Source: Ignavibacteria bacterium (GTDB lineage: Bacteria > Bacteroidota > Ignavibacteria > Ignavibacteriales > Ignavibacteriaceae). Taken from it: a stretch of DNA of 64,000 bases. The notes beneath the pieces were generated by a model. It searched no databases, had not been told where the DNA came from, and worked only from the letters and a program-made list of their open reading frames with translations. Every line of letters begins with the position of its first letter. Within the stretch, counting starts at the first letter, position 1. The stretch lies in assembly GCA_017302895.1 (NCBI GenBank), contig JAFLBV010000001.1:620001-684000 (forward strand), in the 5' to 3' direction. Shown one piece after another: positions 15,811-25,446 of the stretch. Position numbers and translations under genes: made by a program.

Positions 15811-17172
15811 ATGACAACTGAACTTTGGGCTCGACTCCAGTTTGCTTTTACAATCTCATTTCATTACATCTATCCACCACTTAGTATAGGTCTTGGAATT
15901 ATCCTCGTGATCATGGAGGGTATGTATCTGAAAACGGGGAACAAGATGTATGAGATAATGACAAAGTTCTGGGTGAAGATATTCGCACTCACATTTGCAA
16001 TGGGGGTTGCCACCGGAATTGTAATGGAATTTGAGTTTGGTACCAACTGGTCAACCTACTCGCGATTTGTAGGTGATATCTTTGGAAGCGCCCTCGCTGC
16101 CGAGGGAATATTTGCCTTCTTTCTCGAATCAGGATTTTTGGCGATACTTCTTTTTGGGTGGAACAGGGTGAGCCCCCGGGTACACTTCTTTTCAACTTGT
16201 ATGGTTTCGCTTGGCTCAATGCTTAGTGCCGTTTGGATAGTGGTTGCAAATTCATGGCAGCAGACCCCCGCAGGATATCACATTGTGGAGAACGGGGGTA
16301 TAGCCAGAGCAGAAATAACAGATTTCTGGGCGATGGTTTTTAATCCCTCAAGCGTCGACCGGCTTTCCCACACTCTCGGCGGATCATTTCTCGCGGGAGC
16401 TTTTCTTGTGGTTTCGGTGAGTGCCTACTATCTGTTAAAAAATCGACATGAAGACATTGCAAAAGCAGGACTGAAAATTGCACTGGGTGTTGCGTTTTTC
16501 GGTGTGTTTTTCCAGCTTTTTACAGGGCACTCAAGCGCTCAGGGAGTGGCAAAAAATCAACCCGCGAAACTCGCAGCATTCGAGGCTCATTATGACTCCC
16601 TCGCCCCGGGTGACCTTTACATGTTCGGCTGGGTGAATGAAAAAGACAAAACTGTCACGGGCATAGCAATACCGGGAATGTTAAGTTTCCTGATTCATGG
16701 AGATACAAAAACTCCAATAAGGGGACTCGACAGTTTCCCAAAGGGTGAAACTCCTCCCGTACAAATGACTTTTCAGACCTATCATACGATGGTGGCTATC
16801 GGGTTTACCCTGATCGGTCTCGTGCTTATTTCCCTCTTCCTTCTTTGGCGGGGGAAGCTCTTCACCTCGGTGCTTTGGCTTAAAGTTCTCGTCGTTTCGG
16901 TACTTCTTCCTCAGATTGCCAATCAACTGGGCTGGTACACAGCCGAAATCGGTCGACAACCATGGGTTGTTTACGGTTTGTTGAAGACTTCAGACGGCTT
17001 GTCGAAAGTGGTCACCTCAGAGCACATTATCTTTTCTCTGGTGCTTTTTACCCTGATTTATGCGGGTCTTTTTGTTGTATTCCTTTATTTGTTAGACAAG
17101 AAGATAAAACACGGGCCCGATGATCATGTAATGGAACTTGATCTCAGCGAAAAACCAAGGTTGATGGAGTAG
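15811..17172 (+). CDS. cydA: Cytochrome bd oxidase subunit I, short Q-loop
   Basis: Quinol-oxidising subunit of the copper-free terminal oxidase. The haem ligands are visible: H18 (ISFHYIYPP), H187 (DRLSHTLGG) and M327 (YHTMVAIG); proton-path Glu are E98 and E106 ([12 protein letters not shown]). The quinol loop is the short type, with [20 protein letters not shown] giving K253 and E258. The [12 protein letters not shown] block is intact. At 453 residues it is the usual size of short-loop CydA. The gene is 2 nt upstream of cydB. It allows oxygen use at low tension and protects against oxidative or nitrosative stress. Confidence 0.96.
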
Positions 17173-17174
17173 CG

Positions 17175-18203
17175 ATGGAATTTACATTAGACATAAACAC
17201 AATATGGTTCATTCTGATCGGCGTCCTGCTGTCCGGTTACGGTATTCTCGATGGATTCGACCTTGGTGTAGGGTCTCTTCACCTCCTCACCAAATCGGAT
17301 CTCGACCGGAGGATTCTCCTCAACTCAATCGGACCTGTCTGGGACGGCAATGAAGTGTGGCTCGTCACGGGAGGTGGTGCCCTTTTCGCCGCATTTCCTG
17401 ATGTATATGCCACTGCATTCTCGGGGTTCTATATCCCTTTTATGCTGTTGCTTTTTGTACTGATCTTTCGGGCGGTCTCGATTGAAGTGCGGAGTAAAAG
17501 CGAAGGGAAACACTGGCGCGCAGGCTGGGACAGGGCTTTCTCAATCTCCAGTATGGTGATCTCCCTCCTCATCGGCATAACAATCGGAAATGTAATTCTC
17601 GGTTTACCGATAGGGAAAGACAAGGAACTTTACAGCAGTGTCATTGACATGTTGAATCCTTACGCCCTTCTTGTCGGACTGACAACCCTCGCCGCCTTCA
17701 TGATGCATGGATCAATATACCTCGCCATGAAAACAGAGGGCGAACTTCAGAAACAGGTGCGCGGGTGGATAAACAATACAATAATTTTCTTTGTGATTAC
17801 ATATGTGACCGCAACTATGGCAACCCTCATTTACATCCCTCACATGGTTGAACCATTCAGACAGCACCCGTCATTTTTTGCACTCGCAATTCTGAACATG
17901 CTCGCAATTGCCAACATCCCGCGCGAGATAAACCGCGGTAAGGATTTCTTTGCCTTCCTCTCTTCATCGGCAGCAATTCTTAGCCTTATGGCTCTTTTTG
18001 CAGTCGGTCTTTTCCCCAACTTTCTTATCTCTTCAATTTCACCCGAATATAATCTGACGATTTACAACGCTGCCTCTTCCGAAAAAACACTGGATACAAT
18101 GCTCACCATGGTGATCATTGGAATTCCATTTGTACTCGCCTATACGATCAGCATTTACTGGGTTTTCAGGGGTAAAGTGAAACTTGATCATATGAGTTAT
18201 TGA
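17175..18203 (+). CDS. cydB: Cytochrome bd oxidase subunit II
   Basis: Partner subunit of CydA, eight to nine membrane helices, 342 residues. It opens with the family signature: FILIGVLLSGYGILDGFDLGVG, followed by RILLNSIGPVWDGNEVWLVTGGGALFAAFP. The gene begins 2 nt after cydA, so the two are co-translated. I see no CydX/YbgT-like small subunit gene after it in the 235 nt before the next ORF. Confidence 0.96.
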   Translation: MEFTLDINTIWFILIGVLLSGYGILDGFDLGVGSLHLLTKSDLDRRILLNSIGPVWDGNEVWLVTGGGALFAAFPDVYATAFSGFYIPFMLLLFVLIFRAVSIEVRSKSEGKHWRAGWDRAFSISSMVISLLIGITIGNVILGLPIGKDKELYSSVIDMLNPYALLVGLTTLAAFMMHGSIYLAMKTEGELQKQVRGWINNTIIFFVITYVTATMATLIYIPHMVEPFRQHPSFFALAILNMLAIANIPREINRGKDFFAFLSSSAAILSLMALFAVGLFPNFLISSISPEYNLTIYNAASSEKTLDTMLTMVIIGIPFVLAYTISIYWVFRGKVKLDHMSY

Positions 18204-18438: not shown

Positions 18439-21400
18439 ATGCATAACATAAAGAATGTTATCATGCCTCTGACAGGAATGACATGCACGAACTGTGTGTC
18501 AGGCATTGAGATGAGCCTCGGGAAGCTAAAAGGCATACTCGAAGCCCGCGTCGATTATGCAAACGAAAACCTTCATCTCTCCTTCGATGCCGGACTTCTG
18601 ACAGAAAACGATATCATTGCTTTCATCAAGCGCATTGGTTATGGTGTCTCGACCGCCAAAGTGGAGGTGGTGATCACCGGAATGGCTGATGAAACCGATG
18701 CATTAAACCTCGCAAAACTCATCAAGTCCCATGAAGGAGTGGTAGCCGCAAATATCAGTTACACTTCCGAAACAGCAATCCTTGAATACTTCCCCGGAAT
18801 GACCAATCTTTCTGAACTCCTTTCTCTGATCCGTGAAGCAGGATTTGACCTTGTAAAAACAAATGAAACTGAAGAATTTAAGGATGTTGAATCTGAAATC
18901 CGTGCTTCTGAGTTAAAAAAACAAAAACGATTGATGATAACGGGTCTGATTTTTACCATTCCGCTCATCATCTACAGCATGCTTCGTGATTTTCAGGTAA
19001 CGGGATTTGAATACGATCTCTATGCGATGCTCGCTGTTGCAACCATTGTTCAGTTTTATGTCGGAGGCAGGTTCTATTCCGGTGCATACCACAGTCTCAG
19101 GCTCGGAAGAGCCAATATGGATGTCCTCATTGTTCTTGGCTCTTCGGTGGCATATTTCTCAAGCCTTCTGGTGGTTTTCGGCATCATAAAAAGCCCGAAT
19201 GTGTATTTTGAGACGGGAGCAACAATAATTGCGTTTATCAGACTCGGGAAGTATCTCGAAACAAAAGCCAAAGGCCGAACCACTGATGCTTTAAAATCTC
19301 TGTTTGGGTTGCAGTCGAAAACTGCAACTGTTCTTCGGAACGGTGCAGAGATGACCGTTGATGTAAATGATGTGGTTTTTGGGGATATGGTGCTTCTGAA
19401 ACCGGGTGAGAGGGCACCTGTCGATGGAGTGGTGTGTGAAGGCAAGTCGGCATTTGAAGAGTCGATGATAACGGGAGAATCGATGCCCGTTAGCAAAGGT
19501 CCCGGTGATAAGGTTTTTAGCGGTACCATCAACCGTGAAGGGTTGATAAAATTCGAGGCTGTAAATGTGGGTAAAAACACCACCCTCGCACATATAATCC
19601 GGCTTGTAAAAGAGGCACAGGGGAGCAAGGCACCAATCCAAAAATTGACAGATGAAATCGGCAAATATTTTGTACCGTTAATAATTGCTCTCGCTTTTTT
19701 CACTTTCACGGGATGGATTTATGTAGCTCAACTCGATTGGGCTGGAGCGATGATAAATGCGATTGCAGTTCTTGTTATCGCATGCCCTTGTGCAATTGGG
19801 CTGGCAACCCCGACTGCTATCATGGTCGGTACCTCAAAGGGGGCGGAAAACGGAATTCTCTTCAAGAACAGCGAAATTCTGGAGAAGGCGAGCAAGATTA
19901 ATATTGTTGTGCTCGACAAAACAGGTACCATCACCACAGGCGAATTGCAGGTAAAGGATATTATTCCCCTGAACGGATACACAAAAAGCGAGGTGCTGCA
20001 TCTCGCTGCCTGTGCAGAGAGGGGTTCGGAACACCCCATCGGCAAAGCAATTGTGAAAGCCGCTGAGGAAAGAAATCTTAATCCTTTGCGACCGTCAAAG
20101 TTCAGGGCGTTTGCCGGTTTTGGTGTAAGAGCGCTGGTTGGGGAGAAAACCATCTCGATCGGTAACTCCCGTATGATGAGGAATGACGGTCTGGACCTGA
20201 GGCAACTGGAAAAGCAGATTCTGCCTCTCGAAGAGGATGGAAAGACTGTGATGACTGTTACCGTTTCCGACCTGGTGAATAACCTGCCGCTTCAAGTAAT
20301 TGGTATTATTGCCGTGGCTGATACCATAAAGGAGGGTTCAGTAGGAGCCATTGCCGAACTGCAACAACTTGGTCTTGAAGTGGTGATGATAACAGGCGAC
20401 AACAAATCAACCGCCAACTCAATTGCAAAACAGGTTGGGATCACAAGGGTAATAGCTGAAGTGCCCCCCGGTGGTAAAGTTGATGCAATTAAGGAAATGC
20501 AGAATACTCGCTCACTCGGGAATTACTCCTCCCCCGTTGTTGCAATGGTTGGTGACGGAATTAATGATGCACCGGCTCTCGCTCAGGCGGATGTCGGAAT
20601 AGCAATAGGAACAGGAACCGATATCGCCATCGCAGCTGCCGGAATCACTCTGATAAGTGGTGAGCTCACAGGCATCGGCAAAGCAATTTCCCTCTCCCGC
20701 GGCACTTCCGAAACCATCGTTCAAAATCTTATCTGGGCACTTTTTTATAACATCGCCCTTATTCCTGTTGCTGGATTCGGACTCCTCAGTCCGATGTTTG
20801 CCGCCGGTGCAATGGCATTCAGTTCCATCTTTGTTGTTACAAACAGCCTCCGGTTAAAGGGATATAAAGTGAGGACTTTCGAACCTCCAAAATCGATCGC
20901 AAAACAATCGATTGAACTGATACCACGACTTGCACTTCCGACAATTTCTCTCGCAGTTCTTATTACCCTTCCGATGCTCGCCATGTCGAAGAGCGAAATG
21001 GAAATAAAAAATGTGATCGAAAACGGCATGACACCACTTCTTATGATGGTGATGGCTATTTCAAACGGCCTCATTGCGATTTCTTACGCATCGATCCCCG
21101 TTTTTCTTGTAGTCTTTATCAGGAAACGAAAAGACCTCCCCTTCAGTTGGATTCTTGTTCTGTTCGGATTGTTTATTCTTGCATGCGGAACCACGCATGT
21201 TGTCCATATTATCGGTTTGTGGTGGTCGGTTGACTGGTGGCAGGCAACAGTGGATGCAGCATGCGCCGTGATATCTGTCTCCACCGCCATCATTGTCTGG
21301 CCCATCCTGCCAAAACTGCTTGCCATCCCGAGTCCCGAGCAATTGAGACAACTGAATCTCGAACTGCAAAGTGAAAAGGAAAAACTTATTTTCACTCAAA

Positions 21401-23037
21401 CCGAGCTCCAAAAAGCCTATAATGAGGTGGAGCTGAGGGTCGCTGAGAGAACCGCCGAACTCCTCGTTGCGAACGAAAACCTTGTGAATGAGATAAGGGA
21501 GAGGCTTAAAGCCGAATCCGCACTTCATGAAACCAACGAGTACCTCGAAAACCTTTTTAATTATGCAAATGCCCCGATTATTGTCTGGGATAACGCTCTC
21601 TCGATTACCCGGTTCAATCACGCGTTCGAAAATTTGAGCGGTTATTCCAGCACAGAAGTTATCGGCAAAAATCTCGATTTCCTTTTCCCAAAAGAGACTG
21701 CAGCCGACTCTCTCGCATTGATTAAAAAGACTTCCGAGGGTGAGAGGTGGGAATCCGTTGAAATTGAAATCCTCAGAAAAGATGGCGAGATCAGAACGGT
21801 CCTTTGGAATTCTGCAAATATACTCGACAAAAATGATGTGGAAATTACCGCAACCATCGCACAGGGTAACGACATAACCGAAAGGAAATATGCTGAGATA
21901 GCCTTAAGGGAGAGCGAGAAACAGTTCCGTACAATGATCGAAACAATTCCTGTAGCTATCCATCTTTCAACGGGAATCGAACAAATAACCGAATATGTAA
22001 ATCCAGAGTTCGTAAAGCTGTTTGGCTATACCGAGAAAGAAGTCGGGTCGGGAAACGACTGGTGGCCTCTTGCCTATCCTGATGAGAAGTATAGAAAAGC
22101 CATTTCGGAAGAATGGATAAGAAAAGTGGATCATGCCATCGCCACACAAACGAAAATCCCTCCTTTCGAGTCGATTGTCACCTGCAAGGACGGTACAAAG
22201 CGAAACATCTCCTGGACTTTCATTACACTCGGTGAAAAAAACTATTCATGTGGTGTCGATCTGACTGCAAGAATTCAAGCGGAAAATGAGATAAAAGAGC
22301 TGAATCAACAGCTTGAGCATCGGGTGGAGGAAAGGACTTCACAACTTGCAGCCACCAACAAGGAGCTCGAGTCATTCAGTTACTCTGTTTCTCACGATTT
22401 GAGAGCACCCCTGAGGAGTATTGACGGATTCAGTCAGGCTCTACTCGAGGATTACTCCGAAAACCTTGACGATCAGGGAAAAATGTATCTGAACCGCCTC
22501 CGGTTCAATGCCCAGAGAATGGGGCAACTGATCGACGAAATGCTAAATCTCTCCCGGGTTACAAGGGCTGAAATGATTCTGAAGAGGGTAAACCTTTCGG
22601 ATATTGCCTCGGCAATCTGTCAGGAATTGAAAGAGCGCGAGCCGGGAAGAATTGTGGACATTTCAATCACTCCTGACATGACCGACCTGGCGGATCCCAC
22701 CCTGATAGAAGCCGTACTTCAAAACCTGCTGAACAACGCTTGGAAATTCAGCTCCAAAAAAGAAAAAGCAACTATTGAATTCGGATTGGCGACAATCGAG
22801 AAAAGGAAAACCTATTTCGTTAAGGACAACGGCGCCGGCTTCAATATGGAATATATAGATAAACTTTTTACACCTTTCCAACGCCTCCACAAATCCGATG
22901 AATTCAGCGGAACCGGTGTGGGTCTCGCTACAGTTCAACGCATTATCCGTCGCCATAGAGGAGATGTATGGGCTGAGAGCAAAGTGGGAGAGGGCACCGT
23001 TTTTTATTTCACTCTAAACTCTGAAAAGGAGCACTAA
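18439..23037 (+). CDS. Cu(I) P1B-type ATPase fused to ethylene-receptor-like sensor histidine kinase
   Basis: A single 1532-residue ORF. Residues 1-70 are a heavy-metal domain with GMTCTNC (C16, C19); about 75-145 a second such fold without the Cys pair; about 160-815 a complete Cu(I) transporter: TGES 345-348, CPC 449-451, DKTGT 493-497, HP 532-533, GDGIND 705-710, YN 770-771, MAFSS 792-796. An extra helix (about 832-850) follows, then three helices (about 868-955) that align without gaps with ETR1 residues 25-69: Y883, I886, P887, C916 and H920 match ETR1 Y32, I35, P36, C65 and H69 (the copper ligands); ETR1 D25 is N876. Then a coiled coil (960-1030), PAS domains (about 1035-1150, 1155-1275), HisKA with H1319 and an HATPase domain to the end. 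The architecture implies copper pumping and copper-dependent sensing in one chain. A receiver gene follows at once. Confidence 0.93.
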
Positions 23038-23478
23038 ATGTCATTCACTAAAACAATTCTGCTGGTTGAGGATAATTCTGATGATGAATTGTTGACTATT
23101 CGAGCCCTGAAAAAAAACAACATAACGAACAAAATTGATGTGGCTCGGGACGGACAGGATGCAGTCGACTACCTTTTCGAGAGAAAAAACAACGATGCAG
23201 ACATGCCGGCTTTGATAATTCTGGACCTGAAACTCCCGAAAATTGACGGTTTGGAAGTATTAAAAAGAATCAGAGAGAATGAAAAAACCCGCTTCATCCC
23301 TGTTGTCATTCTCACCTCTTCAAATGAGGAGGAGGATATTCTTGCCAGTTATGGACTTGGTGCCAACAGTTTTATAAGGAAACCTGTTGATTTTCTGAAA
23401 TTTGTTGAAGTGGCAAGCAATATCGGAATTTACTGGCTCATGCTCAATGAATCACCTACAAAATCATTCAATAAGTAA
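23038..23478 (+). CDS. Rcp1/CheY-like single-domain response regulator
   Basis: A stand-alone receiver of 146 residues with no output domain. The acidic pocket is E11/D12, the phospho-acceptor D63 (ILDLKLPK), with T93 and K115 (RKP) completing the set. The long insertion after beta 2 and the ILDLKLPKIDGLEVLKRI style match the Rcp1 group that partners phytochrome-like and other PAS kinases. Its ATG follows the stop codon of the ATPase-kinase fusion directly, so the two are almost certainly translated together and the fusion kinase is its likely phosphodonor. The output must be by protein contact or phosphotransfer. Confidence 0.93.
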   Translation: MSFTKTILLVEDNSDDELLTIRALKKNNITNKIDVARDGQDAVDYLFERKNNDADMPALIILDLKLPKIDGLEVLKRIRENEKTRFIPVVILTSSNEEEDILASYGLGANSFIRKPVDFLKFVEVASNIGIYWLMLNESPTKSFNK

Positions 23479-23493
23479 TAATCCGGTAAAAGT

Positions 23494-25446
23494 ATGAAAA
23501 TCCCACTCCGCGTTTTAATTGTCGAGGATTCAGAGGACGACAGGGAACTGTTGCTCATGAAACTGAGGCAGGGCAACTATGAACCTCAATTTTCCCAGGT
23601 AGAAACTAAACAAGACCTGCTTAAAGCATTCGAACAGCAACACTGGGATATTGTTCTTAGTGACTATTCAATGCCGATGTTTGATGGAATTGCAGCTCTT
23701 CGGACGGTGAGGGAGCTTGACCCTGATGTCCCCTTCATTATCATCTCAGGAAATATTGGTGAAGAAGTGGCGGTGATGGCAATGAAATCGGGAGCTCAGG
23801 ATTACATAATGAAGGGGAATCTTCAAAGATTGATACCTGCCATAGAACGGGAATTGAAAGAGGCTGAATCTCGCAGGCAAAGACGGGAAGCTATAGAAGC
23901 CAAAGAAACAAGTGAAAAAAGGTTTAGAAATGTCTTTGAGCACTCTGTAGACGCGATTGGTGTCTCAAAGGCCGGCATTCATATTATAGTGAACCCTGCG
24001 TATGTGGAACTCTTTGGTTACGAATCGAGTGACGAGTTAATCGGCGTACCCGTCCAAAATCTGATTGCGCCGGAGGAAAGGAAAAAAATCCATGAATACA
24101 TCTCAAAAAGAAACGCCGGAGAGAGTGTACCTTCCGGTTATGAAACCCTTGGGCTGCGAAAAGACGGCACCTCTTTCGAGATGGATGTTCATGTTTCCAC
24201 TTATGAGATGAACGGTGAAATATTTACCATGGTTATCCTCAGGGATATTACCGAGAGCAAACGGGCTGCCAGAGAGATTCTGGAAGCAAAAAACAAAGCT
24301 GAAGCCCTGAACCGGATGAAATCGAATTTCCTTGCGAATATGAATCATGAACTTCGGACCCCGCTGAACGGCATCTTGGGCTATTCAGAGATTCTGATTT
24401 CCACCCTGGATGACCCTGATCTAGTCAGCATGTCGCAGGGAATCTATGATTCGGGTAAAAGATTGAGCGAAACGCTCAACTTCATTCTAGATCTTTCTGA
24501 AGCGGAAGCTGAAACTCTCGCTGTGTTTGCCAAGGATGTCGATATAGTCGATCTGGTGAAGCAAAGCCTCGATGACTTCATCCCTGAGATCGAGAAGAAA
24601 AATCTGAAACTGGATACGGTTGTTCACAATGAGCAACTTTTCTCCCGTGTGGATGAGCGGCTGCTCAACAGGATCCTCTATAACCTCGTTGATAATGCCA
24701 TCAAATTTACAGAAAAGGGAAATGTTGGCATCGAGATTGGAAAGGAAGAGATTGACGGTAAAGGATGGGTTTACCTGAAAGTTAAAGATTCGGGAATTGG
24801 AATAGAAAAAACCAACTTCGACCTGATTTGGGAAGAGTTCCGTCAGGTGAGCGAAGGGAAATCCCGTTATTATCAAGGAACCGGACTCGGACTTACTATC
24901 ACAAAGAGAACAGTTGAACTGATGGATGGAGTCATATCAGTCGAGAGTGCGGTGGGTGAAGGCTCTGTTTTCACTGTTAAATTCCCGGAAACCCCTCCCA
25001 ATTCAGGCAGGGCGGAAACGACTCCTCCAGATTTGGCAACTGAAAGCCTTTCGCCAAGAATGTCTTCGGACAAACCGGGGCATAGACCCGTTGCACTTTA
25101 TGTGGAAGATGATCCAATAAATCTTGATGTAATGGGGTTGTTCCTTAGAAAAATTTGCGATGTCGACACGGCTGAAACAGGTGAAAAAGCTGCCGAAATG
25201 ATCAAATCGAAAAAATATGACATTTTCCTTCTGGATATAAATCTCGGATCGGGTATGAACGGTCTGGATGTGGTGAAGGAGATCAAAAAGCTGCCCGAAT
25301 ACGAAGGCGTTCCCATCGTTGCAGTAACGGCGTATGCCATGGGGAACGACAAAGCTGAATTCCTTAGAGGAGGTTGTACCCATTATCTTTCAAAACCTTA
25401 CCGGAAAGCTGAAGTTGTGGAAATTGTGGAGAAAGCTCTGATGTAA
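23494..25446 (+). CDS. Hybrid sensor kinase: receiver-PAS-HisKA-HATPase-receiver
   Basis: A soluble 650-residue hybrid kinase without membrane segments. The N-terminal receiver (1-125) has D57 (VLSDYSMPM); a PAS domain spans about 145-258; HisKA follows with H285 (NMNHELRTPLNG); the HATPase domain has the N box NLVDNAIKFTEKG and GTGLGLTITKR; a C-terminal receiver covers about 528-650 with its Asp in FLLDINLG. It starts 15 nt after the Rcp1-like gene and most likely forms a relay with it and the upstream fusion kinase. No DNA-binding output is present in these three genes, so the final target is unknown. Confidence 0.93.
   Translation: MKIPLRVLIVEDSEDDRELLLMKLRQGNYEPQFSQVETKQDLLKAFEQQHWDIVLSDYSMPMFDGIAALRTVRELDPDVPFIIISGNIGEEVAVMAMKSGAQDYIMKGNLQRLIPAIERELKEAESRRQRREAIEAKETSEKRFRNVFEHSVDAIGVSKAGIHIIVNPAYVELFGYESSDELIGVPVQNLIAPEERKKIHEYISKRNAGESVPSGYETLGLRKDGTSFEMDVHVSTYEMNGEIFTMVILRDITESKRAAREILEAKNKAEALNRMKSNFLANMNHELRTPLNGILGYSEILISTLDDPDLVSMSQGIYDSGKRLSETLNFILDLSEAEAETLAVFAKDVDIVDLVKQSLDDFIPEIEKKNLKLDTVVHNEQLFSRVDERLLNRILYNLVDNAIKFTEKGNVGIEIGKEEIDGKGWVYLKVKDSGIGIEKTNFDLIWEEFRQVSEGKSRYYQGTGLGLTITKRTVELMDGVISVESAVGEGSVFTVKFPETPPNSGRAETTPPDLATESLSPRMSSDKPGHRPVALYVEDDPINLDVMGLFLRKICDVDTAETGEKAAEMIKSKKYDIFLLDINLGSGMNGLDVVKEIKKLPEYEGVPIVAVTAYAMGNDKAEFLRGGCTHYLSKPYRKAEVVEIVEKALM

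Follow-up and report, generated by a model that had tools for sequence, protein, structure and literature searches.

Ethylene receptors such as ETR1, AzoEtr1 of Azospirillum brasilense and Etr1 of Synechocystis combine a three-helix ETR1_N domain and a Cys/His pair of copper ligands with a kinase output. In the cyanobacterial layout, the ethylene-receptor kinase has a single response regulator downstream. According to an extract of PMC6586836, the sensor domain of ETR1 holds one Cu(I) per monomer with femtomolar affinity. Passages of PMC11819568 report that mutation of C65 or D25 abolishes ethylene binding by ETR1, and describe D25 and K91 as a predicted bonded pair, of which D25 is needed for ethylene binding and K91 for the output.

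In plants, the copper ATPase RAN1 (HMA7) is a protein distinct from ETR1, to which it binds. In the portion of PMC6656775 used here, RAN1 binds the transmembrane part of ETR1 with a KD of 33 nM, mainly via its N-terminal cytosolic metal domain and not via its exit side. The direct contact has thus been measured; the copper itself might pass at the pump exit or at the cytosolic domain. Another relevant system is Ks-Amt5 of Kuenenia, a membrane transporter that runs into a histidine kinase and which, in the excerpted text of PMC10433425, is itself taken as the sensor.

Here we analysed a stretch of 64,000 nucleotides (the window) in which pump, receptor-type domain and kinase are found in one protein. 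The features of the locus, all on the forward strand, are as follows.

18439..23037, +, whole fusion ORF, 1532 aa, with an orthologue of the same length in an independent genome (G363)
18439..18648, +, N-terminal metal-binding (HMA) domain with CxxC at residues 16-19 (Pfam; alignment)
18649..18873, +, second HMA-like unit, residues 71-145, without CxxC (model secondary structure and sequence)
18886..20871, +, CopA-type P1B ATPase body, residues 150-811
20896..20982, +, adapter helix, residues 820-848, past the end of the CopA match at 809 (hydropathy; structure models)
20983..21054, +, methionine set M849, M854, M864, M869, M870 and M872, in the link and the start of receptor helix 1
21040..21327, +, ETR1_N domain, residues 868-963, with ligands C916 and H920 and family-specific N876, H923 and D939
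21334..21465, +, long predicted helix toward the sensor and kinase part, residues 966-1009 (structure model)
21529..22293, +, two PAS domains, about residues 1031-1285, the end of the second being estimated (Pfam, NCBIfam)
22369..22560, +, HisKA dimerisation/phosphoacceptor domain, residues 1311-1374 (Pfam)
22693..23022, +, HATPase_c kinase domain, residues 1419-1528 (Pfam)
23038..23478, +, single-domain CheY/Rcp1-like response regulator, directly downstream, a likely partner
23494..25446, +, REC-PAS-histidine kinase-REC hybrid protein, third gene of the set

The earlier note on this DNA had read the frame as a complete Cu(I) P1B ATPase that continues without a break into an ethylene-receptor-type domain and a kinase, and this description holds. 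The ORF is uninterrupted, with no stop or frameshift between pump and receptor domain, and its order of domains is HMA, CopA-type P1B ATPase, ETR1_N, PAS-PAS and histidine kinase. CPC, DKTGT, YN, MxxSS and TGE are motifs of P1B copper ATPases; the protein has CxxC at residue 16, CPC at 449, DKTGT at 493, YN at 770 and MxxSS at 792, and TGE is present as well, i.e. the motifs of a P1B-1 copper ATPase are there. It scores 559.7 bits against NCBIfam TIGR01511 (copper-translocating P-type ATPase; cut-off 397), and Pfam finds HMA (13-68), E1-E2_ATPase (291-470), Hydrolase (487-718), PAS, HisKA and HATPase_c. The expected ethylene-receptor profile is hit by residues 868-963 (ETR1_N, PF25487; 105.1 bits, cut-off 27, E=2.4e-30). 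The second HMA-like unit has no Pfam match of its own.

Compared with the known systems, the pump shares with CopA and RAN1 the catalytic and copper-path motifs and the fold, and the match to CopA ends before the hydrophobic adapter helix. Whereas RAN1 and ETR1 are separate, pump and receptor domain are covalently joined here. In having a transporter and a histidine kinase in one polypeptide, the protein resembles the transporter-histidine kinase fusion sensors; unlike Ks-Amt5, it has a receptor-type domain of its own placed between the pump and the kinase. Among solved structures, neither sequence comparison (best E 0.64) nor Foldseek at E<=0.001 gave a relative of the receptor domain. Structure models of moderate confidence (pLDDT 70 and 74, pTM 0.55 and 0.51) predict that the pump ends inside, that the adapter helix carries the chain to the outer face, that the link 849-865 lies outside and that receptor helix 1 enters the membrane from there.

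With residues 800-1010 as the query, 317 of 1366 candidate proteins matched, and 120 of these matches are listed here. In 114 of these 120 listed matches, CPC and DKTGT (and TGE or SGE) lie upstream of the receptor domain, while the remaining six have only the end of the pump there and are taken as contig-truncated. The architecture is therefore that of a conserved family. HATPase_c appears in the precomputed Pfam lists of 101 of the 120 listed matches (counted by eye). We aligned 111 of the 121 proteins (the 120 listed and that of the window), leaving out the six with the pump end only and four that have SGE for TGE along with CPC and DKTGT. The 111 rows were picked for DKTGT, CPC, TGE and GDG, so these motifs are invariant there by choice; among the pump residues outside this selection, Y770, N771, S795 and S796 are kept in all 111 listed fusions and M792 in 110. 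Both cysteines of the HMA CxxC are found in 107 of the 111 listed fusions, the other four rows being gapped.

The hosts are some Bacteroidota and Chlorobiota bacteria. Five of the listed matches carry organism names, namely Bacteroidetes, Bacteroidales (3) and Prolixibacteraceae MAGs. Over whole genomes, the fusion is rare and patchy: within the window's own order (164 genomes), it occurs in three, all members of the window's genus, and a fourth genome of this genus (90% complete) does not have it. The order of G434, reached via a Bacteroidales MAG, has the fusion in 5 of 393 genomes and weaker, truncated or broken matches in seven more. In a sample of 296 genomes from the phylum, ETR1_N was found in 17 and a frame of fusion length only in the window's genome. 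The orthologue in G363, from the same genus, is a 1532-aa ORF with 93.6% identity and the same gene order, which speaks against an assembly join; together with the 114 of 120 listed relatives, it leads us to reject an assembly artefact or chance join.

The dN/dS values between the window's genome (G000) and G363 are 0.047 for the pump, 0.046 for adapter and link, 0.013 for the receptor domain and 0.057 for the kinase, consistent with strong purifying selection on all parts. In a tree of the receptor domain, 39 fusions and one pump-less protein (L008, see below) group as one clade (100/100) that has a long stem and excludes the other stand-alone domains, which come from Cyanobacteriota, Pseudomonadota, Planctomycetota and further genomes of the phylum; with 115 columns for 69 rows, the inner forks of this tree are poorly resolved.

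The earlier note knew of no described protein with this architecture. Among titles and abstract starts of the open-access literature, we found no paper on a pump-receptor-kinase fusion, nor, in the open-access literature, one on a P-type ATPase continuous with a histidine kinase. Section 2 of PMC7700396 describes diverse output domains, and within that section the word 'ATPase' occurs 0 times. On the other hand, the sequences themselves are already public under automatic names, e.g. 'heavy metal translocating P-type ATPase'.

We next turn to the copper site. The proposed equivalence of C916 and H920 with the ETR1 ligands Cys65 and His69 is borne out, and both residues are present in all 111 listed fusions. 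A gap-free alignment with ETR1 had also been proposed. Its spacing agrees, since N876 (the D25 equivalent) and H920 are 44 residues apart, exactly as D35 and H79 of the A. brasilense receptor, so that the ETR1-type block can be aligned without a gap; the D25 position itself, however, is not an Asp. The A. brasilense Sp7 locus reproduced the published numbering D35, C75, H79 and K98. The likeness to ethylene receptors is thus partial. Of the seven residues called essential for ethylene binding, six are kept: Y883, I886, P887, I913, C916 and H920, equivalent to Y32, I35, P36, I62, C65 and H69, occur in 110-111 of the 111 listed fusions.

The charged pair is swapped. The D25 equivalent is N876 and the K91 equivalent is D939 in all 111 listed fusions, whereas 28 of 29 stand-alone domains have D at the former and 28 of 29 have K or R at the latter position. 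H923, invariant in the 111 listed fusions, is found in none of the 29. Because of N876 and D939, ethylene binding by the fusions cannot be assumed: the site has the copper ligands and yet differs from proven ethylene receptors, and H923 and D939 are possible extra ligands. Two of the compared stand-alone domains (L032 and L041, in G148 and G365 of the window genome's family) are divergent and ETR1_N-like, and do not have the copper Cys.

A second difference lies between pump and receptor domain. M849, M864, M869, M870 and M872 are invariant in the 111 listed fusions, and M854 is Met in 105 of them; a protein outside this set (P0126) has Leu at 872. The six columns are on average 99% conserved, compared with 69% for the remaining columns of this 24-residue stretch, and a random choice of six columns was equally conserved in 1 of 20,000 draws, with the caveat that the Met columns were picked after they had been seen. 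These 24 residues hold six methionines, against a Met content of 2.5% over the whole protein.

For the comparison with receptors that have no pump, we used 40 of the 111 fusions and 29 stand-alone domains (L008, one duplicate and the fusion loci were left out). None of the 29 has Met at 864, 869 or 870, and only one has it at 872. In place of the methionine set, 20 of the 29 have PHGxCYxW before helix 1 (counted by eye). A Met is aligned with M849 in 16 of the 29 and is in many of these the Met of MPHG, so that M849 does not separate fusions from stand-alone domains. In the models, M869, M870 and H923 are estimated to be close to the outer face; M872, H920 and D939 would sit a little further in (their similar depth being predicted from the helix ends), and C916 and N876 deepest of all.

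The fusion, the regulator and the hybrid kinase form a trio, which recurs in the same gene order in G363 and, with 57% and 42% identity, in G535 from the other order (loci L045 and L064). The regulator is close to the structures of CheY and Rcp1 and has no DNA-binding domain. Arrangements vary: in L006, a kinase-less fusion is followed by a separate kinase, a regulator and a REC-PAS protein; in L008, a regulator follows the pump-less kinase; in G434 and G692, the regulator is not adjacent to the fusion. In G599, the frame after the fusion is cut, and its start resembles that of the TonB receptor next to the fusion of G692; in G493, the contig ends 323 bases downstream of the fusion. The neighbours scanned include a TonB receptor, a YfiR-like protein, a ROK protein, glycosidases, a subtilase, a cupin, DUF4249 and a sensor kinase; among them, we recognised no copper gene beside the fusion at the loci examined.

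Directly upstream, in the window and in G363, lies cydAB (cytochrome bd oxidase; 15811-18203 of the window); of the other loci searched, only that of the sister genome shares this arrangement. The window's genome has two COX1-family oxidases as well as cydAB. Among its other P-type ATPases are a separate CopA-like ATPase of 730 residues on contig 6 (43% identity) and an ATPase at C2:252024-254063 (27% identity), which adjoins a COX1-family gene at C2:250445 and is, by its position, likely an oxidase-supply ATPase. Therefore, the fusion need not be what provides bulk export or oxidase supply.

The reading we prefer, and which we regard as about evenly balanced between right and wrong, is that the fusion is a self-loading copper-site sensor. 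Cu(I) would leave the pump domain at the outer face and be relayed in cis by the methionine set to C916/H920, a site whose state the kinase would signal by phosphotransfer to the Rcp1-like regulator. The direct metal handover that the earlier note had suggested becomes more likely with the invariant methionines between pump and receptor domain, which the note had not mentioned. The 1:1 ratio of pump and receptor, the outward, relay-like position of the methionines and the possible ligands H923 and D939 fit a sampling of copper that leaves the protein's own pump. We infer the handover in cis, the phosphotransfer and the passage of copper, which seems likelier than ethylene as the main signal.

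A more specific version holds that a methionine ladder carries Cu(I), driven by the ATPase, straight into an ethylene-receptor-type site of a new, charge-swapped class, that the kinase reports the flux, and that the protein is a covalent counterpart of RAN1-ETR1 in which direct transfer has been selected in nature. This we put forward tentatively, as somewhat more apt to be wrong than right. The plant contact, mainly at the N-terminal metal domain, speaks against simply transferring the exit-side model. The fusions offer an opportunity: with pump, likely relay and site in a single polypeptide, the copper-delivery step would become testable by point mutation in a common laboratory strain, and a swapped Asp/Lys pair in an ethylene-receptor-type copper site would show which residues are behind the ethylene response.

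Several observations weigh against the sensor reading, among them the lack of a recognised copper gene beside the fusion at the loci examined and of a DNA-binding domain in the adjacent regulator. The six kept ethylene-binding residues would be needless for a pure copper sensor, and they lend weight to the main rival, namely that the fusion is a self-loading receptor for ethylene or another small ligand, whose pump only supplies the copper cofactor in cis and whose kinase reports the ligand. The Pfam match to ETR1_N, and the receptor kinase with a single regulator downstream as in cyanobacteria, point the same way. Yet N876 and D939 stand in every listed fusion where the A. brasilense receptor has D35 and K98, and loss of D25, like that of C65, is what the cited passages of PMC11819568 connect with abolished binding in ETR1. 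Moreover, a femtomolar site is loaded once, for which a pump in 1:1 ratio would be excess capacity. We consider this explanation unlikely, although a serious competitor.

Less probable still, in our view quite improbable, is that the protein is a pump regulated by gas or copper, in which the receptor domain gates copper export and the kinase part is secondary. For nineteen of the 120 listed relatives, the precomputed Pfam domains do not include HATPase_c; some of these proteins are probably cut by contig ends, while others, such as P0015, P0029 and P0100, end in PAS domains and a recurring tail. Two pumps (G733, L065 4273-6987; G797, L066 4274-6988) even keep only helix 1 of the receptor domain after pump and adapter and then stop; CPC and DKTGT are present and ligands and kinase absent. 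Against a secondary role of the kinase, the other 101 listed relatives do have HATPase_c, and in L006 kinase and regulator follow as separate genes. G733 and G797 are sisters (86%), so that they probably represent one event. In a gap-free alignment, they keep M849 and M872 and have lost M869 and M870, and G733 also M864. Since these pumps without the ligand helix keep M849 and M872, part of the methionine set may serve the pump.

The reverse case bears on the preferred sensor reading, too. L008 (Bacteroidales Cfx3-06) is a receptor-kinase of the fusion clade without a pump, which counts against that reading. Its start codon lies at fusion M854, i.e. pump and adapter helix are missing together. 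It pairs with the fusion P0067 (SH-aLRT 99 in a tree without outgroup), and on this pairing it was probably derived by loss of the pump. L008 keeps N876, C916, H920, H923, D939, M864 and M869, whereas Ile stands in place of M870 and Lys in place of M872. It is of limited use for testing the methionines cleanly, since it departs at 13 of 52 otherwise conserved sites in 854-1005 (single fusions at most at 2) and not only at M870 and M872. A further protein (P0127, 793 aa) starts at the position of M849 and has both the methionine set and the receptor domain complete. Either it is, like L008, a protein without a pump, or its start may be mis-called or cut; if truly pump-less, it would weaken the tie between methionines and pump.

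That two unrelated genes were joined by chance with no functional coupling is very improbable and was already disfavoured: the halves can separate, as L008 and G733/G797 illustrate, but pump motifs and receptor domain are kept together in 114 of the 120 listed matches, four of the five methionines and the Asn/Asp swap mark the fusion clade, and dN/dS is low on all parts.

A search for stand-alone receptors with the signature of the fusions (candidates of about 385-1225 aa) gave 30 matches among 978, and most of the short ones shown still have pump sequence upstream. Two candidates were rejected: P0140, whose start lies within the receptor domain, appears to be the G493 fusion annotated from a wrong start (same letters), and P0141 is an ordinary receptor. 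One copy of the fusion (G642:C13, L067) has several stop codons in the receptor part and is apparently decaying. In P0123 (485 aa), the pump core is missing in frame and the helix before CPC runs into the adapter helix, which is either a real deletion or an assembly error.

The recurring tail has the form RExxxxxLKxEVNxLLxxxGExxxY and closes relatives that have no kinase, namely P0015, P0029, P0060, P0093, P0100, P0105, P0108, P0124 and others, as well as at L006 8234-9940 and L008 15130-15723; neighbouring REC-PAS proteins end similarly. One possibility is that a shared kinase docks on it.

Finally, no fusion was found on viral contigs, and a tblastn search with the junction returned 19 plasmid records, 0 of which cover 80% of it. 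Plasmid p2 of Novosphingobium sp. ES2-1 carries a stand-alone receptor-kinase (L071 1423-2577) and a response regulator; this plasmid is typed as conjugative and has a Cas9 gene near the receptor-kinase.
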